From: a virus
Virus record (IMG/VR): IMGVR_UViG_3300021961_000284
Location: 1-36,342 of that record
DNA: 36,342 nucleotides
Strand: one strand, 5' to 3'
This document shows positions 1,268-36,342 of the stretch, one piece after another. How positions within the stretch are numbered: the stretch's first letter is position 1; each line of letters starts with the position of its first letter. Below the pieces are notes generated by a model. That model was not told the DNA's origin, did no database searches, and worked only from the letters and a program-made list of their open reading frames with translations. The translations under genes were made by a program, and so were the position numbers.

Positions 1268-1296
1268 ATAACAAAATCAAGCACTTATATTGTCAA
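1268..1296 (-). promoter_or_regulatory. Sigma70-type promoter candidate
   Basis: On the minus strand there is a perfect -35 hexamer TTGACA (1296-1291), a 17-base spacer and a -10 hexamer TGTTAT (1273-1268, 4 of 6 matches). It sits in the AT-rich gap between the terminator at 1366-1394 and the start of the leftward gene at 1171, where a promoter for the 497-1171/GP88-like operon is expected. The rest of this gap (1184-1365) shows no gene. Confidence 0.6.
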
Positions 1297-1419: not shown

Positions 1420-3672
1420 TTACCCAGCTGAATTTCGTCGGCGGTAGGCTTTAACGCCATCTTTTCGATATTTCGTTTTACGCTGATCCATGTCCAGCAA
1501 ATTGGCTTTAACTAGGCTATCGAGGCAGGCTTGCACGTCTGACTGCCGTGCTTTTCTGATTTTATTACAGATCACGCCAAACGTCATGTAATCGTCAAAA
1601 CCGATCAGGTTCAAAAGCTTAAACCGCAGGCTGTCGGCTGGCGCTGATTTTTCACGATCATTCGCTGTTACCAAAACTGCCTTGGCGTCTATATCTCGGC
1701 GGACCAAGGCCGCAGCCCAATCCACATGCTCGACAGTGCGCAAGCCAGACGGTGCTGCCAGAATGAAAGATACTTTCAGGACCAACTCGAAAGCGCCAAG
1801 CGCCAGCGATCCAAGCCCGTTCTGCGCGGCGTATGCTTCCGCCATGTCCTGAAATTCGTCGCTGACCTGTTCCAGCCGCTCGATAGCCTCCGGGCTGGAT
1901 GGGATTCTTATTGGCTCGCCGTAATATTCAAGCCGTTCGTCTTCCGTCATATCATATTCGCCGCCGGTATAAAGCGCGGCTAATGTCGCAGCCATGGTTT
2001 TCTGGATCGGGTTTTTGCTGAAGCCTTTTTTGAGCCGCGGTACCGGATCAGTTTCACGAAATACCAATGCGCGACCCACGAAGCCGTTTGCTGCCGACTG
2101 GAAATCCAGCAGCGTGTCGAACGTCTCCGGCGTTGTGAACCCGGCAATGCTTAGAAATGGCTTTTCGATGCCATCATCGATCTTTTCCAACTGGGATTTA
2201 ATCCGCTCTGCCCGCCGCTCAACCGGCCTGCCATCGTCCAGCATTTTTTGCACCGCAGCATATTCGGAATTGAGCGCTTTGCGAATTTCGTCCTTTAGGT
2301 CGCCTGAAATCAGGAAATAAGCATCGGCCTTGGAATAGACCGACATCAGGATCGCGATCACGCCTTCGAGATATGCTGCACCGCCGCGAGCGGATGCGTT
2401 TTTCAGCTTTTGCAGCAGCAGCCCGAACTCATCGAGAATATACATGCAGGACTGATGCCGGATGAGATTGCGCACGACTTCCTGTTCTGACTTGATAGCG
2501 CCGTGCGTTGCTTTGTGAATACCGGCCGCGACATGCAGATCACGGATAGCCTGCTGAATAGGCTCTTTGCCGGTGCGCGGATCAGCCACGAAAAACGAAA
2601 ACAGATTGCTAGTCGCCTGATAATCGTCCCGGTATTTCAGCCCTATGATATTGCCGACCGCCGTTAATGCTGCGCCAACTGCCAGATTTTCGCGTGGCCT
2701 GCGAGACTGGGAATTGATCCATTCGCAAACCTGACCGACAAAACCTGGAGGCCGCAGCAAATCAACTTCGATTTTTCCAGTTTCTGGAATTTCAAATTTA
2801 TCGCTAGGCTCGAACGTCACACTTTGTTGCCATCCGTTGTTTTCGGCATGGTGGACAAGCGTACCCAGCGTCACCGGATTTACCGATTTACCAAACGAAT
2901 GCCAGCGGCGTTCCAGATTGTCTTTCCCGGGATATTTTCCGCCACGGGCTGACCAATCATCCCAGACGGCAAATGCTGTGCCGCCGCTCGCCTGATGACA
3001 AGCCATTCCGCATCTAATCCACAGCTCATGCTCGCAGTCTGGATTGATAACCGCCAGCATCCCAGCCAGATCGGAATGCGAAACGTCCATATATGTTCCT
3101 GCGAATTCGCTGCGGTGCAACTCCGGCCTTTTCAGGATTTCCAGCAATTCCTGCGGCGCGTCGTCTATATCGTCAACGGAGCCATATTCGAGCGAATATT
3201 TTTTTCCTGATGAATGAACCGATCCCGGCCCTACAACGTAGCCGCTCGATTTGAAGTCAATGCCGGGATAGTCGGCATGATGCTGGAGCAGAGCCATACC
3301 AGAAGGCGCCCGAAAATACATATGCCGCGAGCCGCCACCGGAACCTGTGGCGACAACCAGCCCGCATTTTTCGATGGCTGGTATATCAGATCGCAGCCGC
3401 TCGAAAGACGCTACACCGCTATTTCGGGCGTCAACGTCAATCACAAGCAGATCACGGATCAGCACTCCATAACCAGTCTTGAATTGTTCAGCTTGTTCCA
3501 TGGCGTCAATCTGTTCAGCCGCCCAGATCGGCGTATGCTGCCAGTTAGACGCCACCGGATGCTTTCCAGCACCATTGCAGTGCTCATTGCCACATGCGCA
3601 GCCGCCACCCTTGCGTATCGGCCACAAACCGAAAACGCGATGGCCTCCCTCCCAGAATTCTTTGTACATCAT
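1420..3672 (-). CDS. Prim-pol / PriCT / ATPase-like phage replication protein
   Basis: 750 residues. Residues 1-180 are a bifunctional primase-polymerase (AEP/prim-pol) domain: the metal-binding DVD at 79-81, SGGGSRH with H117, and GIDFKSSG at 137-144 are visible, and an N-terminal CxCxxxxC cluster lies near residue 25. Residues about 195-282 resemble a PriCT-2 helical domain. Residues 305-600 resemble the P-loop part of DUF3987-type replication proteins. The Walker A-like motif reads DPRTGKEP (364-371), with glutamate where Ser/Thr is usual, and LDEFG (413-417) could be Walker B. The last 70 residues look like a basic winged helix. The role is probably initiation or priming of phage DNA synthesis. 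It overlaps the upstream HTH gene by an ATGA. Two adjacent ATGs (3672, 3669) are possible starts after GGAGG. Confidence 0.85.
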   Translation of the reverse strand: MMYKEFWEGGHRVFGLWPIRKGGGCACGNEHCNGAGKHPVASNWQHTPIWAAEQIDAMEQAEQFKTGYGVLIRDLLVIDVDARNSGVASFERLRSDIPAIEKCGLVVATGSGGGSRHMYFRAPSGMALLQHHADYPGIDFKSSGYVVGPGSVHSSGKKYSLEYGSVDDIDDAPQELLEILKRPELHRSEFAGTYMDVSHSDLAGMLAVINPDCEHELWIRCGMACHQASGGTAFAVWDDWSARGGKYPGKDNLERRWHSFGKSVNPVTLGTLVHHAENNGWQQSVTFEPSDKFEIPETGKIEVDLLRPPGFVGQVCEWINSQSRRPRENLAVGAALTAVGNIIGLKYRDDYQATSNLFSFFVADPRTGKEPIQQAIRDLHVAAGIHKATHGAIKSEQEVVRNLIRHQSCMYILDEFGLLLQKLKNASARGGAAYLEGVIAILMSVYSKADAYFLISGDLKDEIRKALNSEYAAVQKMLDDGRPVERRAERIKSQLEKIDDGIEKPFLSIAGFTTPETFDTLLDFQSAANGFVGRALVFRETDPVPRLKKGFSKNPIQKTMAATLAALYTGGEYDMTEDERLEYYGEPIRIPSSPEAIERLEQVSDEFQDMAEAYAAQNGLGSLALGAFELVLKVSFILAAPSGLRTVEHVDWAAALVRRDIDAKAVLVTANDREKSAPADSLRFKLLNLIGFDDYMTFGVICNKIRKARQSDVQACLDSLVKANLLDMDQRKTKYRKDGVKAYRRRNSAG

Positions 3673-6088: not shown

Positions 6089-7947
6089 CATTGCGGCCAT
6101 ACCAGCAAGAGGCACATGATGCGATTATCCAATGGATTAAGAAATGCACGTCGCATTGTTTGATCGAGGCAGCTACTGGCGCAGGCAAATCGCATATCAT
6201 AGCAGCCGTTGCCGATACGATCCACAAGATCAGCGGTGGCAAACATATACTTTGCCTTGCGCCAAGTCGCGAACTGGTGATCCAGAACCGCGAGAAATTC
6301 TCATTGACCGGCAATCCGTCTTCTGTTTTTAGCGCGTCAGTTGGCGAAAAATCACTTCGCCACCCAGTCGTCTTTGGAACGCCGATGACGGTCAAAAACA
6401 AGATCAGGCGTTTCGGATCAGAGTTCGCAGCGGTCATCGTAGATGAATGCCACGGGATCACGCCGACGATCCAAACAATTATATCATCAATCAACGAATG
6501 CAATTCAAATCTTCGAGTGATCGGATTATCCGCCACGCCCTATCGTCTTGGCGCTGGCTACATTTACGCGATTGATGAGGACGGAAACCCGGTTGATAGA
6601 AGTCAAACTCACGAGCCGTATTTTGCAGCGTGCGTCTATAAAATCCAAGCGCAGCAACTGATTGATGAAGGATATTTGACGCAGCCTGTGATTGGAGAGA
6701 TCGGCGCTGGTCATTATGAAACGCTGCATATGCAGGTTAACGCGCAAGGCAAATTCAACGCAGCCGATATAGACAAAGCCTATACCGGCCACGGGCGGCT
6801 TACGTCTGAAATCATTCAGGACATTGTAGCGCAATCAGAAAACCGCAAAGGCGTTATCATATTCGCGGCAACGATTGACCATGCGAAAGAATGTCTGGCA
6901 AGCCTGCCACTTGATAAATCTGCAATCATTACCGGCGACACGCCAAAAAACGAACGTGCGAAGATCATCGATGACTTCAAGGCCCAGAAGTTGAAATACC
7001 TTGTCAATGTGGCAGTGCTCACGACAGGATTTGACGCGCCGCACGTTGATGTTGTGGCGCTGTTGCGACCGACTGAAAGCGTCGGATTGATGCAGCAGAT
7101 CATCGGTCGCGGCTTGCGGATCGCACCAGATAAGAAAGACGTGCTTATATTGGATTATGCTGAAAACATTTTTAGGCATTGCCCAGAGCGCGATTTGTTT
7201 AGCCCGACAATATCAGCAAAACCGGTATCCGGTGGCAGTATCCTTGAATGCGAATGCCCATCATGTCATGTGATAAATAAGTTTGCCCCAGCATTAAATC
7301 CAAGTAATTTTAAGATTGATAAGCATGGATATTTTACAGACATAAATGGCTATGCAATCATAACCGAATGGGGGCCAATGCCTGCTCATCATGGCAGACG
7401 ATGCGGCGGCTTGGTCAGAATAAAAGGCAAGATGGAACGCTGCGAGTATCGCTGGACGTTCAAGAAATGCAAAGCATGTAAGGCCGAAAACGATATAACG
7501 GCTAGGCGATGCGTGTCCTGCAACGTTGAACTAATCGATCCAAACAAAAAGCTAAAATTGCACCAGCAAGAAACAGAGCAAAAAATTTACACTGAAAGAG
7601 TGCTGGATTGGACGGTCATGCCAACACTGAGCAAGAAAGGCGATCCAATGATGCGCATCAAAGTCAAAACCGATGGGCCGCGCATATTCTCGTTCTGGAT
7701 TTTCCAAGAGCCGAAATGGGCTAAAGCCAGACTTGAAACAGATATGTTTCGAGCATTGCAAGGAAACCAGCCGGACACTATAACTTATTCCAAGGACGCC
7801 AAGAGCGGTTTTTGGAAAGTGTTGAAATATAATGCAAATGCCAGCGGGAATTACGATTTACGGAGACCAGACGTTTCGCGGGCAATGCCCTACAGAGGCA
7901 GCGGAACAAGTAACATTTTTCAATTTCCTGCGAAGGCAGTATCCTGA
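6085..7947 (+). CDS. SF2 DEAD/DEAH-type helicase with Cys-rich C-terminal region
   Basis: 620 residues. Motif I ATGAGKS (30-36), motif II DECH (120-123), motif III SAT (149-151) and motif VI QQIIGRGLR (337-345) define a superfamily 2 helicase of the phage type related to UvrB/RecG-like cores. Residues 385-480 contain cysteine pairs at C389/C391/C394, C440, C453, C462/C465 and C476/C479, which suggest one or two zinc ribbons for DNA binding. The last 120 residues are a separate, unrecognised beta-rich tail. It overlaps the exonuclease by ATGA and the VRR-NUC gene by 116 bases in another frame. A role in replication, branch processing or recombination is likely, and the position suits a Rad25/RecG-like partner of the nucleases. 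Confidence 0.9.
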   Translation: MTLRPYQQEAHDAIIQWIKKCTSHCLIEAATGAGKSHIIAAVADTIHKISGGKHILCLAPSRELVIQNREKFSLTGNPSSVFSASVGEKSLRHPVVFGTPMTVKNKIRRFGSEFAAVIVDECHGITPTIQTIISSINECNSNLRVIGLSATPYRLGAGYIYAIDEDGNPVDRSQTHEPYFAACVYKIQAQQLIDEGYLTQPVIGEIGAGHYETLHMQVNAQGKFNAADIDKAYTGHGRLTSEIIQDIVAQSENRKGVIIFAATIDHAKECLASLPLDKSAIITGDTPKNERAKIIDDFKAQKLKYLVNVAVLTTGFDAPHVDVVALLRPTESVGLMQQIIGRGLRIAPDKKDVLILDYAENIFRHCPERDLFSPTISAKPVSGGSILECECPSCHVINKFAPALNPSNFKIDKHGYFTDINGYAIITEWGPMPAHHGRRCGGLVRIKGKMERCEYRWTFKKCKACKAENDITARRCVSCNVELIDPNKKLKLHQQETEQKIYTERVLDWTVMPTLSKKGDPMMRIKVKTDGPRIFSFWIFQEPKWAKARLETDMFRALQGNQPDTITYSKDAKSGFWKVLKYNANASGNYDLRRPDVSRAMPYRGSGTSNIFQFPAKAVS

Positions 7948-8248
7948 CACATATGGGATCATTGCGCTGCATCCACGAAATGAAGGTAAACGAACAAGAA
8001 AGCAAGTCATGTGGCAGAAGGCTGAAGGATTAGCAACTGGTGCCCCTGATATAATCATACCGGGGCGGAGGACGTTTTTATGCGAATTGAAACGCAGGGA
8101 TCATACGAAATCAAAAATAAGCAATCCACAAATTACATATCTTGAAACCGCGCAATCGTTGGGGGCATTTGTTTGCATTGCGCTAGGCTATGATGCAGCA
8201 TTGGAGGCATTTAATGAATGGTCAAGAAATGTATCGCTTGGCAGATGA
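7832..8248 (+). CDS. VRR-NUC domain nuclease
   Basis: 138 residues. The VRR-NUC (PD-(D/E)XK) signature is clear: TEAAEQ with E22, RNEGKR (49-54), EGLATGAPDIII with D73 (65-76) and FLCELKR with E85/K87 (82-88). Phage stand-alone VRR-NUC proteins act as structure-specific or Holliday-junction nucleases. The catalytic E22 lies in the stretch that overlaps the helicase gene, so the long 116-base overlap is probably real, and the start must be at 7832 or the second ATG at 7838. The ribosome site is weak, so coupling to helicase translation is likely. Together with the exonuclease and helicase it completes a recombination set. Confidence 0.85.
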   Translation: MQMPAGITIYGDQTFRGQCPTEAAEQVTFFNFLRRQYPDTYGIIALHPRNEGKRTRKQVMWQKAEGLATGAPDIIIPGRRTFLCELKRRDHTKSKISNPQITYLETAQSLGAFVCIALGYDAALEAFNEWSRNVSLGR

Positions 8249-8453
8249 GGTTATGGCAGGTAAGTTGGAAATGAATGATATGATAAAAGACGTGAAAACG
8301 ATATGTTCACTGCGCACTTTTATCATTGCCTGTGAAATTTTGGAATTTGAAACAAAAGAAAGGCGGAGGCATGAATTAGAAAAATTACCAAAACTGTTGC
8401 GGCCCCATGTCGAAAAATGGGTATGGGAAATCTGGAGAACAAGAAATGCTTAG
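8214..8453 (+). CDS. Small hypothetical protein
   Basis: 79 residues. The ATG at 8214 is chosen because GGAGG lies six bases upstream; an in-frame ATG at 8190 lacks a site. The protein is helix-rich and acidic-basic mixed, with many Glu/Lys/Arg and a C-terminal KWVWEIWRTRNA. No known motif was recognised. It overlaps the end of the VRR-NUC gene by 35 bases and the next gene by 8. It is an accessory gene of the rightward replication operon, in more AT-rich sequence than the upstream recombination genes. Confidence 0.7.
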   Translation: MNGQEMYRLADEVMAGKLEMNDMIKDVKTICSLRTFIIACEILEFETKERRRHELEKLPKLLRPHVEKWVWEIWRTRNA

Positions 8454-8691
8454 ACTTGGAATTGTGCTTTCCGTAGGCAATAAAAATGGTGGCACTTCTC
8501 AATTTATGGTTATTGAAGAACAGTGCGAGAGCATTGAAAAGTTTTTGACTAAAATATCAGATTGTGACTTTATAATCGTAAATGAAAAATATAGAAAGAA
8601 AGGCGAACGCAGTTTTGGCAGAGTACGCAAGTGCATATTGAATACGAACCGAATCGGCAGAGTGGCAGAATACGACGAAAGCGAGGACTGA
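8446..8691 (+). CDS. Small hypothetical protein
   Basis: 81 residues from the ATG at 8446, with GGAG nine bases upstream. The longer in-frame form from 8407 is less likely because it would sit inside the previous gene without a ribosome site. The sequence looks like a small alpha/beta protein (MLRLGIVLSVGNKNGG near the N terminus, DFIIVNEKYRKKG in the middle) with an acidic end, EYDESED. I do not recognise the family. It overlaps the upstream gene by 8 bases and is followed two bases later by a membrane micro-gene. Confidence 0.65.
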   Translation: MLRLGIVLSVGNKNGGTSQFMVIEEQCESIEKFLTKISDCDFIIVNEKYRKKGERSFGRVRKCILNTNRIGRVAEYDESED

Positions 8692-9140: not shown

Positions 9141-9560
9141 ATGGACTTGATAATCAATAAAAACTTTGACTTCATTGCTCACTATAAAGCGGTCAAGAAA
9201 AGAATAGCTGATGCAGCGAAAGACCAACAAACGCTCAAAAGAGAACAGGAGCAATTAAAAAATGCTGAACTAAAAAGAAAGGAACAAGAACAATTAAATC
9301 GTATAAAAGAAATTGCTCAAAGCGTTAGACCCATTGCCATTGACGTTCTGCGCGAAATGGCATCAAAATATAATGTAACAATTGAAGATATCTGCGGAAA
9401 TAGACGCACAAAAGAATTGATAGACCCACGTTATGAATTCTGCTGGATTATGAATAAAAAACACAAATGGACACTGACGAAGATAGCTAAGTTTTTGGGA
9501 AAAGATCACACCACTATTTTACATGGAATAAATAAATTTTCTGAAAAAAATAATCTGTAA
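9141..9560 (+). CDS. DnaA domain IV-like DNA-binding protein
   Basis: 139 residues. Residues 15-60 are a Lys/Glu/Gln-rich coiled coil. Residues 62-139 match DnaA domain IV (Bac_DnaA_C), including the box-binding signature KDHTTILHGI (121-130; the bacterial form is DHSTVIHA) and the upstream TKIAKFLGK helix. There is no AAA+ ATPase domain, so this is a stand-alone DNA binder. It might mark the phage origin, or compete with host DnaA for DnaA boxes (inference). It is the last gene of the rightward operon, with a possible bidirectional hairpin terminator 10 bases downstream. Confidence 0.85.
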   Translation: MDLIINKNFDFIAHYKAVKKRIADAAKDQQTLKREQEQLKNAELKRKEQEQLNRIKEIAQSVRPIAIDVLREMASKYNVTIEDICGNRRTKELIDPRYEFCWIMNKKHKWTLTKIAKFLGKDHTTILHGINKFSEKNNL

Positions 9561-9570
9561 AAATAGATGA

Positions 9571-9591
9571 GTGCAGTGTTTATCGCTGCAC
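9571..9591. terminator. Weak bidirectional terminator candidate between convergent operons
   Basis: GTGCAG-9-base loop-CTGCAC is a 6-bp stem where the rightward replication operon meets the leftward lysis operon. On the minus strand it is followed by TCATCTATTTTTA and on the plus strand by CCTTCTTAA, so T-runs are imperfect. It overlaps the last codons of the leftward gene ending at 9580. Confidence 0.4.
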
Positions 9592-12330: not shown

Positions 12331-14994
12331 TCACCAATCAATTTCATAGTTCCACGTCGAGGCATTTGTAGATGTATTCGCATCCCCGGTAACTATTTTT
12401 ACATACCCGGCTGCAAAGTAGGTTCCACCATTGTGCTCTGCAAAAACGCCGTGATCCAGCGCTTCAAGTGCCGCGCCGGACGTGCGTGGAGTGATTTTTA
12501 TCCTACACGCATTGTTAGCTACCACGTTATTATTTTGGACTTGTGCCGATCCACTAGCAGCGCCTAGCGTTATTGTTCCGATAAGTGGGTAATCCATGTT
12601 GTAATGATTGCGTGACCGATAGGTGTCCGTCCCGCTATCAATAATAAACGCGGCTTCTATTGTAGAGATATTCGCAAGAGACGCGCTTCGCATCTTGTTT
12701 TTATTTCCAACAACGCCTGCGTCAGTGCATGTCGCAGCAAGAGTTATCCCGCGCGCGGTCAACCCACCACAACCAACGCTAATGATAAAATCATTGTTAT
12801 AAACTTGCGGGCGCGTGCAGTTATCAAGATAAACCATTTCAAGAGTTACCGTGCTGGCGTATTCCCAATTTGCACGCTCGAAGATATTACCTTCAATCCT
12901 CAAATCTGTTTGATAAGCGCCATAGCACAGCCAATTGTTCTTTGTGGATACAACACGATTCCTTGTTACGCTGTTCCCATACCCTTGGTGCGAAGATGAG
13001 CCTTGAACGTAGATTGCGCCCTGAAACAGGGCAATGCCAGAGCGATTGTGAAGCCTGTTATTGTCAATCTTGTTACGGTAGGAACGGGCATACTGCGAGT
13101 AGACACGGACACAACATTCAAGTTCAGATGATGCGGCAGTCTGTATGATTGTGTTATCAGTTATTTCGTTGTCGAAAATGTCAGCAAACCATTCAAATTG
13201 GAATGTTGCGCCAGTGCCGGAAGCGGAAGCAGTCGTTGAACCTGCGTCGGCTGGAACGACAGAATAACCGCCAGCGGTAGTTATTTCTACCGAAGTCACT
13301 GCGCCTGAATTTACTGTAAGAACGGTCAACGTCGCCTGCGCTCCGCTCCCTGAAAGGGTTCCGCCAGTCAGTGTTATGACTTCCCCAACGATGTATCCAG
13401 AGCCGCCAGATACAATCGAAACAACATCACGGAGGGAAGTCCCAGCAGCAGCCGAATTGATTGTTGCGTCAAGACTTATCGCAGCGCCGACGCCCTCAAT
13501 ATAGTTATCAGATGCACGAACACGTTTTGCGTTTCGTAGCGACCATCCTTGGAAGTGGTTTGATTGTGTTGTGTCTGTTGCAACAGTCGTATTGCCTGTG
13601 ATTACCGCGCCATCTGCGTCAATAGCGAATGGCTTCCGACAATCTACGCACTGGTTTCCACTAACTATGGTCCCCTTCATGGAAAGGCCATAAACAGCAT
13701 GATCCCAACAATTTTTGAATTTGTTATTTACTATGCGACACCTGAACGCAGTACCAGAACCGGATAAGTTGCCGACGCCAACCGGACTTATGTAGGAATC
13801 AAACGTACAGCCTTCGACAGTAAATGTTCCTCCGTCAGCAGTGTCGAAATAAACGAAATAAAGATTAAGCGTCGTGCTGCTATTGTATTCAGAATATGGA
13901 AAATTGCCTGACCCGTAGCAATTTTTTATCACAGTGCCGTTGCAATTATCCAGGAAAATCCCGCATTGTACAGGATTATCAATACCAATGCTATCAAACA
14001 CGCAATCGTCACCGGACACCTCTATTATGTTCAAGGTTTGAACATTTCCGGTAGTAGTCAAAAAATCACCGGCTTCCGTGAATGTCTGGATGTAATTGAG
14101 AAACTTCCCCGGCCCCTCAACGCGAACCCTGTCTCCTGAAATGAAAATCGCCGTAGCTGTCAAATCAGCCGCTCGCATAGCACATCCAGCTACAAGATGC
14201 AGAGTTACATCGTCGTCAGAAATCGTGAACGATGGCGACGTGTCAGAAAACGGCACTGTGCCGACAACATCAATGCAAAGCGTATCGCCTGCGTCCATCA
14301 AGGCGACGGCAGCTTGCAATCGAGCGTCATTCTGTGCTGCCGTGTTGCTTGTCGAAACACCAAACCATGAAGCGTAGAGTTTCTTTTCTCTTTTTCGTGC
14401 CCACGCTCCTGCTGTAGTGGCTATTGCGCCGTCAGCAAAATAAGCGCCGCCAACGGTATCGGCAGTGACCAATGCGGAATAGTTACCGCTACGCAGAAAC
14501 CACGTGTCACCATCTATTTTCACCGTAGCCCCAATGGACAGGCCCGCCGCAGCAGCCGCCGCCTGTGATGAATAAACCGTTGTCCCTGTATCCGGGCTAA
14601 GATAGTCCGTACCATCCGTTGCTATTCCGTATGCGCCCGCACCAGTGCGCTTCATCAGGCCATTCGTGGAAAAGTCGCTATCCATGATAGCGCCAGAAGA
14701 AATATCATCTTCGTCATATTCGGATGCAGTGCCTACACCTACATAATTCCAAGTCGTTGAATATGTTTCATCGGTCGTTGTTACAGTAATTTCATAAGCC
14801 GAACCATCGGCGAAAAATTCAATTTTTCCGTTACTATCAGTCTGGAATGGATTACTTTTATAAGTGGCGCCATTGCGATCTGAATAGATTGTTGCAACGC
14901 TAGCCGAGCCCTGAACTTTTACAGTCACGTTCGCTCCGACAAGAATGTTGCCAGCCGTGTCAGTCGCTGTTTTTTGAAATTTCGCAAAAGCCAT
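12331..14994 (-). CDS. Tail spike / receptor-binding protein (right-handed beta-helix)
   Basis: 887 residues. Residues 1-105 are an anchor domain with KFQKTATDTAGN, TDSNGKIEFFADGSAYEI and YVGVGTASEYD. It is shared with the first 105 residues of the 15641-16261 protein. Residues about 205-510 and 600-800 contain runs of short strands with repeated N/V/G patterns (VEGCTF, IVNNKF, VSGNQC, VTRNRV, IEGNIF), typical of pectin-lyase-fold spikes. Residues about 518-600 are a separate Gly/Thr-rich module (SGGSGYIVGEVITLTGG...GATFQFEW) that I recognise as a recurring insertion in virion proteins. No catalytic pair can be named. It is likely the host-range protein, trimeric at the virion tip. Confidence 0.8.
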   Translation of the reverse strand: MAFAKFQKTATDTAGNILVGANVTVKVQGSASVATIYSDRNGATYKSNPFQTDSNGKIEFFADGSAYEITVTTTDETYSTTWNYVGVGTASEYDEDDISSGAIMDSDFSTNGLMKRTGAGAYGIATDGTDYLSPDTGTTVYSSQAAAAAAGLSIGATVKIDGDTWFLRSGNYSALVTADTVGGAYFADGAIATTAGAWARKREKKLYASWFGVSTSNTAAQNDARLQAAVALMDAGDTLCIDVVGTVPFSDTSPSFTISDDDVTLHLVAGCAMRAADLTATAIFISGDRVRVEGPGKFLNYIQTFTEAGDFLTTTGNVQTLNIIEVSGDDCVFDSIGIDNPVQCGIFLDNCNGTVIKNCYGSGNFPYSEYNSSTTLNLYFVYFDTADGGTFTVEGCTFDSYISPVGVGNLSGSGTAFRCRIVNNKFKNCWDHAVYGLSMKGTIVSGNQCVDCRKPFAIDADGAVITGNTTVATDTTQSNHFQGWSLRNAKRVRASDNYIEGVGAAISLDATINSAAAGTSLRDVVSIVSGGSGYIVGEVITLTGGTLSGSGAQATLTVLTVNSGAVTSVEITTAGGYSVVPADAGSTTASASGTGATFQFEWFADIFDNEITDNTIIQTAASSELECCVRVYSQYARSYRNKIDNNRLHNRSGIALFQGAIYVQGSSSHQGYGNSVTRNRVVSTKNNWLCYGAYQTDLRIEGNIFERANWEYASTVTLEMVYLDNCTRPQVYNNDFIISVGCGGLTARGITLAATCTDAGVVGNKNKMRSASLANISTIEAAFIIDSGTDTYRSRNHYNMDYPLIGTITLGAASGSAQVQNNNVVANNACRIKITPRTSGAALEALDHGVFAEHNGGTYFAAGYVKIVTGDANTSTNASTWNYEIDW

Positions 14995-31845: not shown

Positions 31846-32200
31846 GGATTTTGCCCAGCGCGGCCAATACTGCCGCCTGTACTGGCTCCGGCTTTAGTGA
31901 GCCATCCTCGTTGGAGATGTCTATGGTTTCCCGCCATTTGGCACGAGTTTTCATCCAGAAAATCGCAGCAGCGACATTGCCTTTTTTATCCGGCGATGTT
32001 GCGATCTGAAACAGATTATTCGCGACCTGTGCGTTCAGCTTTGCCATGCCGATATCGAGTTCTGCGCGATAGTATTTCCGCAGCGTCTCGTCTGATATGC
32101 CGATGATTGCCGCAATATCGTCGTGCTTCATGCCGATGCCAGCCATCAGTGTTACCTGATTGCGGGATCGTTCGTCTGGTTCATACGCTGGCATTACCAT
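31835..32200 (-). CDS. Terminase small subunit
   Basis: 121 residues. MAGIGMKHDDIAAIIGISDETLRKYYRAEL (19-48) is a helix-turn-helix of terminase-small type, followed by LDIGMAKLNAQVANNLFQIATSPDKKGNVAAAIFWMKTRAKWRE, the usual oligomerisation helices. It recognises the packaging start on the DNA and regulates TerL. It overlaps the glycosyltransferase gene by 20 bases, and the secreted-protein gene by 11. The start is at 32200 or the third residue ATG at 32194. Confidence 0.88.
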   Translation of the reverse strand: MVMPAYEPDERSRNQVTLMAGIGMKHDDIAAIIGISDETLRKYYRAELDIGMAKLNAQVANNLFQIATSPDKKGNVAAAIFWMKTRAKWRETIDISNEDGSLKPEPVQAAVLAALGKIHEE

Positions 32201-33119
32201 ATTGCACCAATTTCATCCCATATTCATTAACCTGATCCGATATTTGCAGATCATTTTTTCGTATCAGCTTTCTATTCTTGAACGGTGTATAATCTACATG
32301 ATGATGATACCGTCCGAACTTAAATACCAGCCTTGATACATCTGGATGTACTTTAACTTGCATCTGACTTTTTGCCAATGTTCCTGTATCTGCATATTTT
32401 TCGCCGGATTTTACTGATCCTTCAGCATGATAAAATTCTGCTGTATTTCCACCTTTAATAGTTTGAGTGTTCATCTTTTCTTGCAAGAACGCATTAAACT
32501 GAACAGTACACCATCCAGCTTTTAACATATCTAATGAGATTATCGTATCTTCATTGTAACGACCGCGCCATCTAAATGATAAATCGTTTTTTATAAGATT
32601 ACATGAATATATTCGTGTGTTCATTATAAATGGCGGTATTTTGCTTCTAGCCGGGGCAAACATATGATAATTGGGTCCAGCCATAGCAATATTTTTATAA
32701 CGCAATACAAAATCTTCCATTGCCTTAAAAAATGATCCTGTTGATACTTTTACTCTTTCATTTTTATTTAATCTTCTAAACGAAAGAATATTATCATCCA
32801 TAACCCAGTGCCATTTATGTCCATTTGCAATACTATGATCCCATGCAAAATTTCTTGCCGGTCCCGGTCCAGTGCTTTTAGACAATCCTAAATTATCGCA
32901 TAATTCATACTTTTCTTTATAAGATAAATCTAACTCTATAGCCTTTGCCATTAAATTCATATCTGATATTGCTTTTATGTATTCTTTCATTTGATTTGGT
33001 TCAACAATAATACAATGTGGCACTCCCATCTTCGTTAAATATTTTGAAGTTATCATATATTCAGAGCGCCCTTTGCTCGGAATATATAATGGAAATTGAG
33101 GTTTATTTGCTTTATCCAT
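32181..33119 (-). CDS. TAGT-like glycosyltransferase (TET/JBP-associated type)
   Basis: 312 residues. Blocks are FPLYIPSKGRSE (9-20), STGPGPARNFAWDHSIANGHKWHWVMDDN (82-110, metal-binding DDN at 108-110), MAGPNYHMFAP, NTRIYSCNLIKNDLSFRWRGRYNEDT (167-192), GWCTVQFNAFLQEKMNTQT and FGRYHHHVDYTPF. These are the hallmarks I recall for the GT-A-like TAGT family (PF20691 type), described by comparative genomics as linked to base hypermodification in phages. The substrate here is unknown; no TET/JBP oxygenase or hydroxymethylase is seen. It overlaps the ParB-domain gene by 8 bases, so the two are likely coupled. It is more AT-rich than its neighbours. Glycosylation of DNA or of a virion protein are the options. 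Confidence 0.8.
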   Translation of the reverse strand: MDKANKPQFPLYIPSKGRSEYMITSKYLTKMGVPHCIIVEPNQMKEYIKAISDMNLMAKAIELDLSYKEKYELCDNLGLSKSTGPGPARNFAWDHSIANGHKWHWVMDDNILSFRRLNKNERVKVSTGSFFKAMEDFVLRYKNIAMAGPNYHMFAPARSKIPPFIMNTRIYSCNLIKNDLSFRWRGRYNEDTIISLDMLKAGWCTVQFNAFLQEKMNTQTIKGGNTAEFYHAEGSVKSGEKYADTGTLAKSQMQVKVHPDVSRLVFKFGRYHHHVDYTPFKNRKLIRKNDLQISDQVNEYGMKLVQYGNASV

Positions 33120-33765
33120 ATCGTTTTGACTCTGTATCCATTTTTTCTTGTTCTGGGAACCATATTGATTTTGTTTTATCAGTATGGCTTTGCCCTATTA
33201 TGCTAAAGAACTCTGCAACATCATCATTATTTTCAAAATGAACTATAATATGCCTAAATGATTTTTTGTCTTTTTGATCATATTCAGGCATATCTTTCCA
33301 TTCTTCTTCCGGATTAGTAATTCCTTGCTCTATATCTAATGATATATTGGCCAATTCTCCTTCCGAAAAACCAATCAGCCCCAGATCGAACCCGGCAACA
33401 TCGAGATCGCCAATCTCCACCTTCAGCAGGTCCATATCCCAGCCAGCATTAAGCGCCAGTTGGTTGTCGGCCAGAACGTAGGCTTTCTTCTGCGCCTCGC
33501 TCCAGCCGGTCGCCACCATAACCGGCACTTCGTCGATCCCCAACTTGCGAGCCGCCATAACGCGACCATGCCCTGCGATGATCTGGCTGTCCTCATCCAC
33601 CAACACTGGGCTAGTCCAGCCCCACTCCTTGATCGACGCTGCCAGTTGCGCCACTTGCTCGTCGGAATGCGTTCTGGCGTTGCGTGCATACGGGATCAGG
33701 CTATCGACTGACCGACGCTCGATCTTGTCGGCGGGCCATCCTTTTATTGCGCCAATTTTACTCAT
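33112..33765 (-). CDS. ParB/sulfiredoxin-like domain protein
   Basis: 217 residues from the ATG at 33765 (AAGG five bases upstream). The ParB N-terminal core is residues 12-110: RRSVDSLIPYARNARTHSDEQVAQLAASIKEWGW, PVLVDEDSQIIAGHGRVMAARKLG (GHGR at 65-68) and VLADNQLALNAGWD. Relatives are often fused to a DNA methyltransferase; here that part is missing, and the tail (170-217) has FRHIIVHFENNDDVAEFFSIIGQ and DKTKSIWFPEQ. That tail pattern I have seen with ParB/TAGT phage loci. The ParB fold can bind or cut nucleic acid or use nucleotides; the activity is not shown. It is coupled to the TAGT gene. Confidence 0.8.
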   Translation of the reverse strand: MSKIGAIKGWPADKIERRSVDSLIPYARNARTHSDEQVAQLAASIKEWGWTSPVLVDEDSQIIAGHGRVMAARKLGIDEVPVMVATGWSEAQKKAYVLADNQLALNAGWDMDLLKVEIGDLDVAGFDLGLIGFSEGELANISLDIEQGITNPEEEWKDMPEYDQKDKKSFRHIIVHFENNDDVAEFFSIIGQSHTDKTKSIWFPEQEKMDTESKRYG

Positions 33766-33766
33766 C

Positions 33767-33895
33767 TTAACCTTTGCAGCAAATGATTTCGGCCAAGGCC
33801 GCATATACCCCATGCGGCGGCAGAAGCGGCGTTATCTTGCACCCGCTGGTCCATACGGTGTTAATTTCGTGCAGCGGCGCATAAAAAAATACCAT
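33767..33895 (-). CDS. 42-aa hypothetical protein upstream of ParB
   Basis: 42 residues from the ATG at 33895 (MVFFYAPLHEINTVWTSGCK...), chosen because GGAGG lies eight bases upstream. The open frame extends to 34015, but the extra part has a composition of random translation and overlies two hairpins. The peptide has PLLPPHGVYAALAEIICC near its end. The stop TAA is one base before the ParB ATG (TAAGATG), so it is coupled to it. No family is recognised. Confidence 0.5.
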   Translation of the reverse strand: MVFFYAPLHEINTVWTSGCKITPLLPPHGVYAALAEIICCKG

Positions 33896-33914
33896 TCCCT
33901 GATCCTCCAAAATT

Positions 33915-33947
33915 GGCTGGTCGATGAACCGGAAACACCGACCAGCC
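33915..33947 (-). other. 9-bp hairpin in the leader of the ParB/TAGT operon
   Basis: GGCTGGTCG (33915-33923) and CGACCAGCC (33939-33947) are perfect inverted repeats around a 15-base loop. On the minus strand it lies 10 bases upstream of the GGAGG of the 42-aa gene. It is not followed by a T-run sufficient for termination. A regulatory or protective 5' hairpin is likely. A weaker GCGCG/CGCGC pairing lies just upstream (about 33950-33982). Confidence 0.5.
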
Positions 33948-34015
33948 GTGCGCGCCTGTCTGGGAGGGAACCAACCGCGCATGAATAAAATATGGCTTTT
34001 TTTACAAGATTGCAA

Positions 34016-34199
34016 ATAGTATGCACATATTTAATTAAGTATTTGATTCCATTGGAAAATAGCAAAAAGCTGTTAGTCCTTTATATATACAGATATACAT
34101 CCACACAGAGAGACACTTTTTGAGAGAGAGAGAAATATATATATATAGAGATATATATCTATATGATATATTCTTTCAAAATCAAACACTTAACCCCTA
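34016..34199. other. AT-rich non-coding region with simple repeats
   Basis: No gene is evident in about 180 bases. It contains a (GA) run, TTTTTGAGAGAGAGAGAAA, then (AT) runs with AGATATATATCT, a perfect 12-base palindrome. On the minus strand TTGATT-16-TATAGA could be a promoter for the ParB/TAGT/terminase operon. AGCTGTTAGT (34068-34077) repeats the right half of the palindrome at 34199-34220. A leftward promoter region, or an origin-like unwinding element, is possible. Confidence 0.5.
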
Positions 34200-34220
34200 C
34201 TAACAGCTATAGCTGTTAGT
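34199..34220. repeat. 22-bp perfect palindrome at a gene end
   Basis: The arms ACTAACAGCTA and TAGCTGTTAGT are exact reverse complements with no spacer, so the 22 bases are a perfect palindrome. It contains the stop codon (34202-34200) of the 34200-34394 gene. A further copy of AGCTGTTAGT lies at 34068-34077. It could be a protein-binding site or form a hairpin in RNA. Confidence 0.65.
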
Positions 34221-34394
34221 CACTATCAGATTTTGATCGCCTGACTTGCGGTTTGATACTTCAAGCCGCATCCTTTTAAGATTCGCTTCAAGCTCCGGTG
34301 CTGGGCGACCGCCTGTTTTTAAGATTGCAGCGATGATGGTCTCTGCATCCACAATGGCCGTTTCTAGTTCTTTTGTCGTATATGCCGGGAACAT
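34200..34394 (-). CDS. 64-aa hypothetical protein
   Basis: 64 residues with GGAGG five bases before the ATG at 34394. MFPAYTTKELETAIVDAETIIAAILKTGG is mostly one helix, then RPAPELEANLKRMRLEVSNRK a second charged helix: a small helical hairpin. The last residues TNSYSC are encoded by half of the 22-bp palindrome. No family is recognised. It is the last gene before the AT-rich region, 67 bases after the M15 peptidase gene; that short gap contains an imperfect inverted repeat around A-rich sequence. Confidence 0.7.
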   Translation of the reverse strand: MFPAYTTKELETAIVDAETIIAAILKTGGRPAPELEANLKRMRLEVSNRKSGDQNLIVTNSYSC

Positions 34395-34461
34395 TATTAC
34401 CTCCTGCGTCTGCCGTAGAATAAATGCAAGAGGTGGGTAACCGGCTTTTTTTAGCGATTAC

Positions 34462-34836
34462 CTACCCCTTTTTTTTGCCGCAGCCTTTATACCAAGTCCG
34501 CGCTGATCCTTTTATTTCGATATGCAAGTGGTGCATTCGCCCGCAATACCAGCCGACGCGAAAGCCCGCCCTATGTGCCCGCTTTTCAATCGTCTTGCGG
34601 CTAACGCCTTTGGGCGGGTAAACGTCTATTGCGCGGCCACTTGCGTGCAGGCTTGGCTTATGCGTCCCGGCGATCTTTGCGTTTCTGCGAAAGCCAGAAA
34701 TAACTCGCAATCGGTTTTTTGTTGCGAATTGACAAAGTTTTATGTTGACGCCGCGACAATTTTTTGCCTGCGCTACGGGTGGTTCTATAGCGCAGGCAGA
34801 TAGCAAGATTGCCATCATGATTGGTATGATCTTCAT
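34462..34836 (-). CDS. M15-type peptidase, predicted lipoprotein
   Basis: 124 residues. The signal MKIIPIMMAILLSAC ends in a lipobox LSAC with C15. The domain has FRRNAKIAG, H64 in LHASGRAIDV with D71, and H103/H105 in HHLHIEI, the zinc ligands (H-x6-D ... H-x-H) of M15 D-Ala-D-Ala carboxypeptidases such as VanY or phage L-alanyl-D-glutamate endolysins. It would cut or trim peptidoglycan from the inner leaflet of the outer membrane, or the periplasm. It is well away from the lysis cassette, among small early-type genes. It overlaps the micro-gene 34833-34910 by ATGA. The C terminus encodes a poly-A run (AAAAAAAA), which could slip. Confidence 0.85.
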   Translation of the reverse strand: MKIIPIMMAILLSACAIEPPVAQAKNCRGVNIKLCQFATKNRLRVISGFRRNAKIAGTHKPSLHASGRAIDVYPPKGVSRKTIEKRAHRAGFRVGWYCGRMHHLHIEIKGSARTWYKGCGKKKG

Positions 34837-34910
34837 TCAGGGAACATCATTAAAATCATAATGCCAAACGAGAAAGCCATCATCGTGAAATTAAAAGCAG
34901 TGTTTTTCAT
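34833..34910 (-). CDS. 25-aa membrane micro-peptide
   Basis: ATG at 34910 and stop TGA overlapping the peptidase ATG as ATGA; its own start overlaps the upstream stop likewise. The peptide is MKNTAFNFTM followed by a hydrophobic helix, MAFSFGIMILMMFPE at the end. It matches the 27-aa peptide at 36014-36097 in the NT.F.F..MA..FG..IL..FPE pattern, which makes expression more credible than size alone. One membrane helix is predicted; function unknown. Confidence 0.55.
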   Translation of the reverse strand: MKNTAFNFTMMAFSFGIMILMMFPE

Positions 34911-35137
34911 AGTCCTACTTCCTTTTCTGTCCATTCTTCGATGTTTACCTTTATTGGCTTTGGGTCTGACATTATTGCGTCAACACATTCGCCGTAAGTC
35001 ATAAATTGAGAACCTGTATTCGTAAACCAAGCGCCTGACTTGGCTTTCCAGAATTGGCCTATATCGTCACCATTTCTCGATACAGTATAAACCAAAAGAA
35101 CTGGATGTAACCTTATTTCAGTGATGATAGTTATCAT
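34907..35137 (-). CDS. 76-aa hypothetical protein (paralogue of the upstream gene)
   Basis: 76 residues. LLVYTVSRNGDDIGQFWKAKSGAWFTNTGSQFMTYGECVDAIM is similar in layout to the 35118-35348 product (WYAVEIDGELVAALC...AAWWVVLDW...FHTFGEAIDYV): a Y-V strand, a G turn, a W-rich middle and a (T/F)-Y/F-GE-x-x-D-x helix. Both look like small alpha/beta domains of phage proteins of unknown function. The start at 35137 overlaps the previous gene by 20 bases; the stop overlaps the micro-gene start by ATGA. Confidence 0.65.
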   Translation of the reverse strand: MITIITEIRLHPVLLVYTVSRNGDDIGQFWKAKSGAWFTNTGSQFMTYGECVDAIMSDPKPIKVNIEEWTEKEVGL

Positions 35138-35348
35138 TTCTTTCGACCTCCATTTTCTTTACTGCTGCCTCAATCTTGACGTAATCTATCGCCTCGCCAA
35201 ATGTATGAAAATACTCTGCATAATTTGGGAGCCAATCTAGAACGACCCACCATGCCGCTTGCGTCCTACACAGTGCAGCCACAAGTTCGCCATCTATTTC
35301 GACTGCATACCAATTCTGGTGCCGTTTGACTGTTAAATTTTCCATCAT
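35118..35348 (-). CDS. 76-77-aa hypothetical protein
   Basis: About 76 residues from the ATG at 35348 (a second ATG follows directly at 35345; a GTG at 35354 is also in frame). AGGTGG lies just upstream, and the ATG overlaps the previous stop (ATGA). The middle has WYAVEIDGELVAALCRTQAAWWVVLDWL and FHTFGEAIDYVKIEAAVKK. See the next gene for the likely paralogy. No catalytic residues or membrane segments are visible; many Trp residues suggest a compact small domain. Confidence 0.65.
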   Translation of the reverse strand: MMENLTVKRHQNWYAVEIDGELVAALCRTQAAWWVVLDWLPNYAEYFHTFGEAIDYVKIEAAVKKMEVERNDNYHH

Positions 35349-35632
35349 AGCCACCTACAATCATCGTGGCAGCAATCTAGAATAAAATCATCCAGCTTTG
35401 CAAAAACTGCCTGCGCCAGTTTAGTTTTTATTTCGATTGTTTCGCATATATCATCATTTTCCCAGTCTGCTTCGCCGTCGGTCACATCCACCAGTCGCAA
35501 AAGTTCCGGCTCCCATTCAATCGAATGATCTGTGTGGCGTGCATAATTCACAAAGATTGATCCGCCATATAAGCGCCCGTCAAATTCAAATTCCTCAACA
35601 GGTATTTTAGCACTTCCGTATGTGATTTTCAT
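35345..35632 (-). CDS. 95-aa hypothetical protein
   Basis: 95 residues from the ATG at 35632, preceded by GGAG six bases upstream (an in-frame ATG at 35644 is weaker). KITYGSAKIPVEEFEFDGRLYGGSIFVNYARHTDHSIEWEPELLRLVD is a beta-rich first half with an acidic second half (DGEADWENDDICETIEI), ending in a cysteine cluster CCHDDC. No family is recognised. It belongs to the run of coupled small genes that begins at the window's right edge. Confidence 0.65.
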   Translation of the reverse strand: MKITYGSAKIPVEEFEFDGRLYGGSIFVNYARHTDHSIEWEPELLRLVDVTDGEADWENDDICETIEIKTKLAQAVFAKLDDFILDCCHDDCRWL

Positions 35633-35671
35633 TTCTTGCTCCATCTCTTACTGGTTAGCTGCGCCTGATCA

Positions 35672-35989
35672 TCAGATTGCTACGCAATCGGCTTTGTATT
35701 CCGCTGCAATTTCGCCGTCAGCATCAAAAAAGTCTAACGGTATTTGCGTAGCGATTAAGTAGTTTTTATCGCGGCGGATATACGTGTTATCGCTGATTAA
35801 CAAATTCGCGACAATATTGTGAGCATCCGCAAGGCGGCCAGTGAAGCGCCACGCCTCATAGTGGCCATCTCCATCGTCGGTAGTAAAAACGGCTGGCGCA
35901 TTAGCCCAACTGCCATTGGCAGGCTTGCCATGACCATACGTATCAATCAATTCTACGGTTCCGGTCTGTGTTTTGTGTTGATATGCCAT
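35672..35989 (-). CDS. 105-aa hypothetical protein
   Basis: 105 residues; the start is firm because the leader GAGGGACAAACA (35990-36001), identical to that of the GP88-like gene, precedes the ATG. The sequence is beta-rich with GTVELIDTYGHGKPANGSWANAPAVFTTDDGDGHYEAWRF and TYIRRDKNYLIATQIPLDFFDAD. No catalytic motif is recognised. It follows the 27-aa membrane peptide by about 24 bases. Confidence 0.7.
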   Translation of the reverse strand: MAYQHKTQTGTVELIDTYGHGKPANGSWANAPAVFTTDDGDGHYEAWRFTGRLADAHNIVANLLISDNTYIRRDKNYLIATQIPLDFFDADGEIAAEYKADCVAI

Positions 35990-36001
35990 TGTTTGTCCCT
36001 C
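35990..36001 (-). promoter_or_regulatory. Repeated translation leader (copy 2)
   Basis: GAGGGACAAACA directly before the ATG at 35989, identical to the copy at 449-460. The upstream ACCAAACGT also resembles that copy's ACCAAGC. Confidence 0.65.
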
Positions 36002-36013
36002 ACGTTTGGTTGA

Positions 36014-36097
36014 TTATTCCGGAAAGATAACTAGGATTATCAGGCCAAAAGCCAATGCAGCCATGGATGCCCAGAATGCGAATGTGTTGTCTGTCAT
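36014..36097 (-). CDS. 27-aa membrane micro-peptide
   Basis: ATG at 36097 and stop TAA at 36016-36014. The start is preceded by GAGGGACAGACA, the third copy of the shared leader, so it is likely translated. The peptide begins MTDNTFAFWASMAALAFG and ends IILVIFPE, one hydrophobic helix. It resembles the 25-aa peptide at 34833-34910. Size below normal gene-finder limits explains why it could be missed. Function unknown; small membrane effector or anchor. Confidence 0.65.
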   Translation of the reverse strand: MTDNTFAFWASMAALAFGLIILVIFPE

Positions 36098-36109
36098 TGT
36101 CTGTCCCTC
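36098..36109 (-). promoter_or_regulatory. Repeated translation leader (copy 3)
   Basis: GAGGGACAGACA directly before the ATG at 36097; one base differs from copies 1 and 2. AACACACAC lies upstream. Confidence 0.6.
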
Positions 36110-36124
36110 ATGTGTGTGTTGATA

Positions 36125-36342
36125 TCAAGCCGCGATTGCGGCTTGTGTTGCTTCAGCATGCCACACGACAAAGCCGCTTGTGTCTTTCTTGGCCTTGCTT
36201 CCCTTTGGCTTCAGCGCAACAATTTTGCCGCAACCATTGCCGCGCATGTCGGGATCAAGATGACGCAAATCGGACGCGTCGCCATCGATTGTCTCAAAGC
36301 CGCAAAATTGAGCGGGCATGGCGCAACCAAAGCACACTGCAA
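36125..36342 (-). CDS. GP88-like protein, C-terminal part (cut by window edge)
   Basis: An open frame enters from the window edge (codon phase: 36342-36341 are the last two bases of a codon) and ends at TGA 36127-36125. It reads AVCFGCAMPAQFCG, then ETIDGDASDLRHLDPD, and KIVALKPKGSKAKKDTSGFVVWHAE. This corresponds to the C-terminal end of GP88-like proteins (VAVVF..KLPE...VIDGD..DLRFLDP...V.GL.AKG.AKKDTSGFVV). It joins in frame with the N-terminal part at 1-448 if the sequence is circular. A GTG at 36337 would be only an apparent start. About 35-40 family residues between the two parts seem to be absent at a direct join. Confidence 0.75.
   Translation of the reverse strand, partial: AVCFGCAMPAQFCGFETIDGDASDLRHLDPDMRGNGCGKIVALKPKGSKAKKDTSGFVVWHAEATQAAIAA

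Follow-up and report, generated by a model that had tools for sequence, protein, structure and literature searches.

A GA/AT-rich tract between inward-facing IHF-consensus sites as a probable replication origin in an uncultured phage with a Prim-Pol/DUF3987 primase-helicase

What is the role of the A+T-rich DNA at positions 34016–34220 of an IMG/VR virus record? The record, which represents a bacterial virus and is referred to as the window, was analysed over its full length of 36,342 bases. This DNA had been described as an origin or strong regulatory region. Our analysis favours the first part of this description, on the comparative evidence of a homologous tract, IHF-consensus sites, duplex stability and an association of the weakest DNA with the primase gene in other phages, whereas the second part gained no support of its own. 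Region ~34030–34220 is probably the replication origin of the phage, operating through the primase/IHF mechanism proposed below.

The sequence elements named in the original prediction are all present, i.e. the GA run (from 34122), an alternating AT stretch (34135–34147), a 12-bp palindrome (AGATATATATCT, 34149–34160), and a perfect 22-bp palindrome at one end, the right half of which recurs as an 11-bp copy with a start-to-start distance of 143 bases (Table 1). The tract itself contains no gene, as had been claimed, but a minus-strand ORF of 64 aa has its stop codon inside the palindrome, so that the gene-free part is ~33983–34199. This ORF has a good ribosome-binding site, and as a query it retrieved no relatives from viral_contigs. 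Of all palindromes in the record, that of 22 bp is the longest; when the whole record was simulated 300 times with a first-order Markov model, 5 runs contained a palindrome of at least 22 bp, and the length of the 22-bp palindrome alone is thus only mildly unusual, not extreme. With up to three mismatches allowed, the expectation for its pattern was 0.00 (100 shuffles). We regard it as a candidate initiator or regulator site. As an exact 20-mer it was absent from the viral contigs; it folds as a hairpin but lacks a following T run, and it was not among the terminator-like sites. The 10-mer AGCTGTTAGT, with up to one mismatch, occurs three times genome-wide, always in the tract region, at 34068 (+), 34199 (−), and 34211 (+); one copy is inverted and the three do not form a direct array. 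Searches of Rfam and, by DNA, of the phage collection gave no match, and no cluster of DnaA boxes was found.

Table 1. Positions of the features in and around the tract and the primase gene
Feature	Positions	Strand	Basis or remark
Third IHF-consensus site, AATCAAGCACTTA	1275..1287	+	Perfect WATCAANNNNTTR; 133 bp past the primase stop, within the weak stretch ~1276–1375
Prim-Pol/PriCT_2/DUF3987 primase-helicase, phrog_3022	1420..3672	-	Profile matches
ParB-like gene, far end of the primase–ParB interval	33112..33765	-	Family match; start set at residue 17 of the ORF as listed
Possible 71-aa ORF between tract and ParB	33767..33982	-	Translated ORF; fetched loci gave no match
IHF-consensus site, AATCAAATACTTA, left of tract	34036..34048	-	Perfect WATCAANNNNTTR; upstream arm toward tract
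AGCTGTTAGTC, copy of palindrome half	34068..34078	+	Inverted repeat with 34199–34208 around the tract
Block homologous to L085, CAGATATACATCCACACAGAGAGACAC...GA run...AT alternation	34088..34164	+	blastn, local alignment
(GA)6 run	34122..34133	+	Sequence scan
Least stable 50-bp duplex of the record	34133..34183		Nearest-neighbour scan
IHF-consensus site, AATCAAACACTTA, right of tract	34180..34192	+	Perfect WATCAANNNNTTR; upstream arm toward tract
Perfect 22-bp palindrome, ACTAACAGCTATAGCTGTTAGT	34199..34220		Holds stop codon of the 64-aa ORF
Small ORF, 64 aa	34200..34394	-	ORF list, profile search; no family match

The tract had also been called easily melted, and a nearest-neighbour scan indeed located the least stable duplex of the record within 34016–34220: the least stable 30, 50, 80, and 100 bp start at 34134, 34133, 34114, and 34082, respectively. 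That the tract is the weakest DNA of the record at all four sizes argues for an origin, and the A+T-rich, easily opened stretch expected of an iteron/IHF/AT-rich origin is thus present, with 34133–34183 as the probable unwinding element. A second stretch of low stability (~1276–1375), located just downstream of the primase gene, ranks among the five weakest for each of these four sizes. The GC-skew check suggested in the original prediction gave no support, as the extremes of cumulative skew lie at 9578 and 35956 and none lies at the tract.

Two IHF-consensus sites that bracket the tract had been missed in the original prediction. The consensus sequence for IHF is WATCAANNNNTTR, and the whole record contains five perfect matches, two of which flank the tract, while one lies beside the primase gene and two are located elsewhere. 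The density-based expectation in the region is 0.03 sites compared with the 2 observed, and only 1 of 3000 shuffles of the region contained two or more. This distribution supports the origin reading, although IHF-consensus matches are poor predictors of binding, a point that counts against it. The wider form of the consensus, WATCARNNNNTTR, given in the available part of its source (PMC8421141), has six sites in the record, including the same three. A motif common to the region and its relatives, TCAANNACTTA, was first read as an iteron but proved to match the IHF consensus.

The position of the tract relative to the primase gene depends on how the record closes. Its ends (1–460 and 36125–36342) join in frame to give an uninterrupted frame of 221 aa, which matched phrog_1617 with 112.5 bits, compared with 39.5 bits for the end piece alone. 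Because the ends join as a phrog_1617-like gene, the genome appears to be circular or circularly permuted and nearly complete; some bases (perhaps ~40 codons) may be missing at the join, since the two matched stretches leave ~40 profile positions uncovered there. Once the ends are joined, 3.5 kb separate the tract from the primase stop, across the junction, and the primase–ParB interval comprises 3996 bases. This interval is ~4.0 kb both in the record (33766–36342 plus 1–1419) and in the related locus L085 (4749–8734), but, relative to the primase gene, both the orientation of the tract and the main direction of the small genes in the interval are opposite in the two, as if the whole interval, tract included, had been inverted between them. 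The small interval genes tested had no homology in the fetched loci. Upstream of the ParB-like gene, a 12-bp inverted repeat (92%; 33915–33947) is predicted to form a stable RNA hairpin just 5′ of the ribosome-binding site, and the surrounding 131-nt stretch folds with a z-score of −3.8.

Conservation in relatives, which had been set as a test of the original prediction, was found in L085 and its near duplicate L084, the contigs of which also include the ParB relatives L010 and L012. These loci have several proteins in common with the record (primase, 55% identity; Sak4, 81–82%; ParB, 67%; glycosyltransferase, 65–70%; and small terminase, 59%), and the tract is 95–97.5% identical over 40 bp (for L085, blastn gave 97.5% across 40 bp, and 76% across 76 bp). 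Local alignment scores were 77 (L085) and 72, compared with shuffle maxima of 39 (L085) and 42 (0 of 300 shuffles), and an exact 24-mer of the tract was found in only these two contigs of the IMG/VR collection. In both loci, the tract is located 0.1 kb downstream of the primase gene, and the sole perfect IHF site of each locus sits at it. The presence of an orthologous tract directly downstream of a primase of 55% identity supports the origin reading; the next gene in L085 is convergent, so that the tract lies between two convergent genes, an arrangement that favours a site with a function at the DNA level. Among the other loci, the ParB relative L076 contains (GA)n and AT stretches with an inward pair of IHF-like sites, one of them perfect (alignment score 47; 0 of 300 shuffles), and in L087, 20 of 23 bases around an IHF site downstream of the primase gene match the 34180–34192 site (score 31; 4 of 300 shuffles). 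Against the origin reading, L086, L091, and L096 gave no significant alignment to the tract, and the perfect WATCAANNNNTTR was absent from the examined stretches of L086, L093, L094, and L095. The comparison of IHF sites is partly circular for L092, L095, and L096, because their stretches were chosen after the AT-rich lists had been seen.

A wider comparison was made among phages with the same type of primase, which matched 394 phage records; 15 of these were fetched among the 40 matches listed. In 14 of the 15 annotated phage loci, the least stable 80 bp of the stretch that was fetched lay within 4.5 kb of the primase gene (expected, 4.9); when the record and four contigs were added, this held for 19 of 20 (expected, 8.4), although the 20 loci are not independent trials, given that the phages are related and that L084 nearly duplicates L085. 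At up to 300 bp from the weakest stretch, the 15 phages contain seven WATCARNNNNTTR sites compared with 1.74 in dinucleotide-kept shuffles (seven or more in 2 of 400), and the regions of the record and the four contigs contain five compared with an expected 0.31 (0 of 400 shuffles). Neither these counts nor the distances of the weak DNA depend on the choice of the L092, L095, and L096 stretches, and the closeness of the weak DNA to the primase gene, and of these sites to the weak DNA, favours an origin. Runs of (GA)6 or longer are present in 3 of the 20 primase-bearing loci, namely the record, ct7L0027 (L092), and Torfinnsbu (L093), and that each is intergenic and near the primase gene points in the same direction. 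What the sequences show directly is the set of parts and how rare they are, the presence of a homologous tract next to the primase gene of relatives, and the association of weak DNA with this gene.

Three other explanations were weighed against these data. The tract lies directly upstream of a minus-strand ParB–glycosyltransferase–terminase operon and could be its IHF-assisted promoter/operator with the palindrome as a repressor site, an arrangement that we consider rather unlikely. The palindrome and its half-site do resemble an operator, and one −35/−10-like match is present on the minus strand (34161–34134), but promoter-like matches occur at chance level (3 compared with an expected 3.0), and the L085 tract is flanked by convergent genes, adjoining the primase gene and 3.8 kb away from ParB. 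These two results also leave the proposal of a strong regulatory region with no support of its own. It is still less probable that the tract is neutral, low-complexity DNA produced by microsatellite growth in an unconstrained intergenic gap: slippage gives GA and AT runs, and the length of the GA run varies between relatives, but 97.5% identity over 40 bp next to a primase of only 55% identity, the inward pair of IHF-consensus sites, and the recurrent association of weak DNA with the primase gene argue against neutrality. A cos/pac-type packaging site, in which the palindrome would be cut and the terminase genes would be preceded by IHF sites and short repeats, is very improbable. Lambda cosB includes an IHF site, and the tract lies upstream of the small terminase gene at a distance of ~2 kb, but in L085 the distance to that gene is 5.4 kb and the tract adjoins the primase gene, the inverted repeats listed for the stretches of relatives include no perfect 22-bp palindrome, and the record ends elsewhere, inside a gene.

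If the tract is an origin, the primase-helicase is the candidate initiator. In a structure model, its C-terminal 96 residues have the helix/strand order of a winged helix with a mean pLDDT of 68 (78–85 in the core blocks), compared with 38 for the model of the full-length protein. Foldseek searches with the C-terminal model retrieved IclR, MarR, Zur, and Z-alpha proteins, which we take to be winged-helix folds, all with E-values above 0.01. Confidence in the winged-helix prediction for the primase C terminus is moderate; the modelled domain counts in favour of the origin reading, and the lack of a match with an E-value below 0.001 counts against it. For the C-terminal winged-helix domains of related primases, origin recognition has been suggested (PMC5862659, in its accessible part). 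The primase gave no match in genome_contigs or among PDB sequences. Elsewhere in the record, the protein encoded at 9141–9560 carries a DnaA domain IV-like helix-turn-helix (Bac_DnaA_C, 6.9e-15) but, at 139 aa, is too short for a whole DnaA.

The following mechanism is proposed. The primase-helicase, with its Prim-Pol, PriCT_2, DUF3987, and predicted C-terminal winged-helix parts, would recognize the TTAGT-type repeats (the three AGCTGTTAGT copies), possibly helped by a small DNA-binding partner. Host IHF would bind the two inward-facing sites and bend the DNA around the GA/AT tract, which would then open, allowing the helicase to be loaded and the primase to start synthesis. We infer IHF binding, the repeat-recognizing protein, and the start of replication at the tract from the sequence features described above.

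Comparable arrangements have been proposed for plasmid pRN1 and phage BIP-1. According to the available part of PMC4234260, replication of pRN1 requires a stem-loop of 100 nt that lies downstream of its primase-helicase gene and remains functional when moved, and a similar stem-loop origin has been proposed for BIP-1, whose replication protein contains PriCT_2 and has a similar domain order. The phage shares with both an initiator combining AEP primase, PriCT_2, helicase, and winged helix in one protein, the winged helix by model, and a non-coding element near the 3′ side of the primase gene. When the single-stranded DNA downstream of the primase gene was folded, strong stem-loops relative to shuffles were found in L085 (z = −7.8), L091 (−7.5), L093 (−6.0), and L087 (−3.9), which supports the origin reading in line with the pRN1 and BIP-1 proposals; the corresponding stretches of L086, L092, and L076 showed no such strong folding. 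Folding was weak in L094 and in the record, where the tract had a z-score of −0.75 (−2.1 with the outer inverted repeat). The record thus has no large stem-loop directly 3′ of its primase-helicase gene, and its tract is 3.5 kb from that gene instead of adjoining it; both features differ from pRN1 and BIP-1 and, together with the lack of a GC-skew extreme and of a DnaA-box cluster, stand against an origin. Furthermore, the helicase part of pRN1 is of the SF3 type instead of DUF3987, and the part of PMC4234260 available contains no mention of IHF-consensus sites or a GA/AT tract.

Other known origins share individual features with the tract. As outlined in the accessible text of PMC5043065, the iteron origins of pSC101 and R6K gamma likewise combine short repeats, an IHF site, and an A+T-rich stretch with a replicon-encoded initiator. 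In the record, two perfect IHF-consensus sites, identified by sequence, lie beside the weak stretch, and the element is linked to the gene of its candidate initiator (0.1 kb in L085 and 3.5 kb in the joined record), but there are only three repeats, one of them inverted, no DnaA-box cluster, and a different type of initiator. The lambda ori, described in the same text as iterons plus a 40-bp A+T-rich region, similarly places repeats for a phage initiator beside a weak stretch, but the tract lies outside the initiator gene and has no O protein. The alpha protein of phage P4 (PMC4234260, available part) also unites priming, helicase, and winged-helix origin-binding functions at ori, but has a Toprim-type primase, and the P4 origin contains repeats. 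The kind of element is thus already known, and the layout seen here, in which two inward IHF-consensus sites enclose a GA/AT tract that has apparently been inverted together with the whole interval, is a local variant of it. Apart from the BIP-1 stem-loop proposal (PMC4234260), no mapped origin for phages with this type of primase was recognized in the literature covered, most subscription papers being outside its scope. If the origin reading is correct, the tract gives an uncultured phage an origin that is both precise and testable, and origins in its relatives could be sought by a simple rule, i.e. the weakest DNA with IHF sites near this primase gene.

An IHF-like core with a preferred spacer, AAAATCAANGACTTAAG, was found in at least 120 stretches, compared with 27 for the reversed control and 80 for an IHF-preserving spacer variant; this enrichment is only a lead, because in many of the 80 listed loci the motif falls within an open frame, which inflates the count. 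Its context was judged by eye in 26 of those 80 loci, picked by hand. In L121, L126, L140, L153, L161, L160, L173, and L176, it lies within or beside lineage-specific short repeats, which are possible iteron origins. Whether the core is a portable origin part, kept while the flanking initiator repeats change by lineage, is doubtful; if it were, sequence could be used to recognize the origins of phages whose replication proteins differ. A literature search with motif letters found no phage-origin paper by title.

Several further observations concern other parts of these genomes. A gene for a TET-associated glycosyltransferase (32181–33119) adjoins the ParB-like gene and the terminase, suggesting possible DNA hypermodification in this phage, and an 887-aa ORF without a PHROG match (12331–14994) is located among the tail genes. 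In L085, a repeated block, TCAAGAACTTTTTTC, lies in front of minus-strand small genes (6640–8484) and may represent a shared early promoter.
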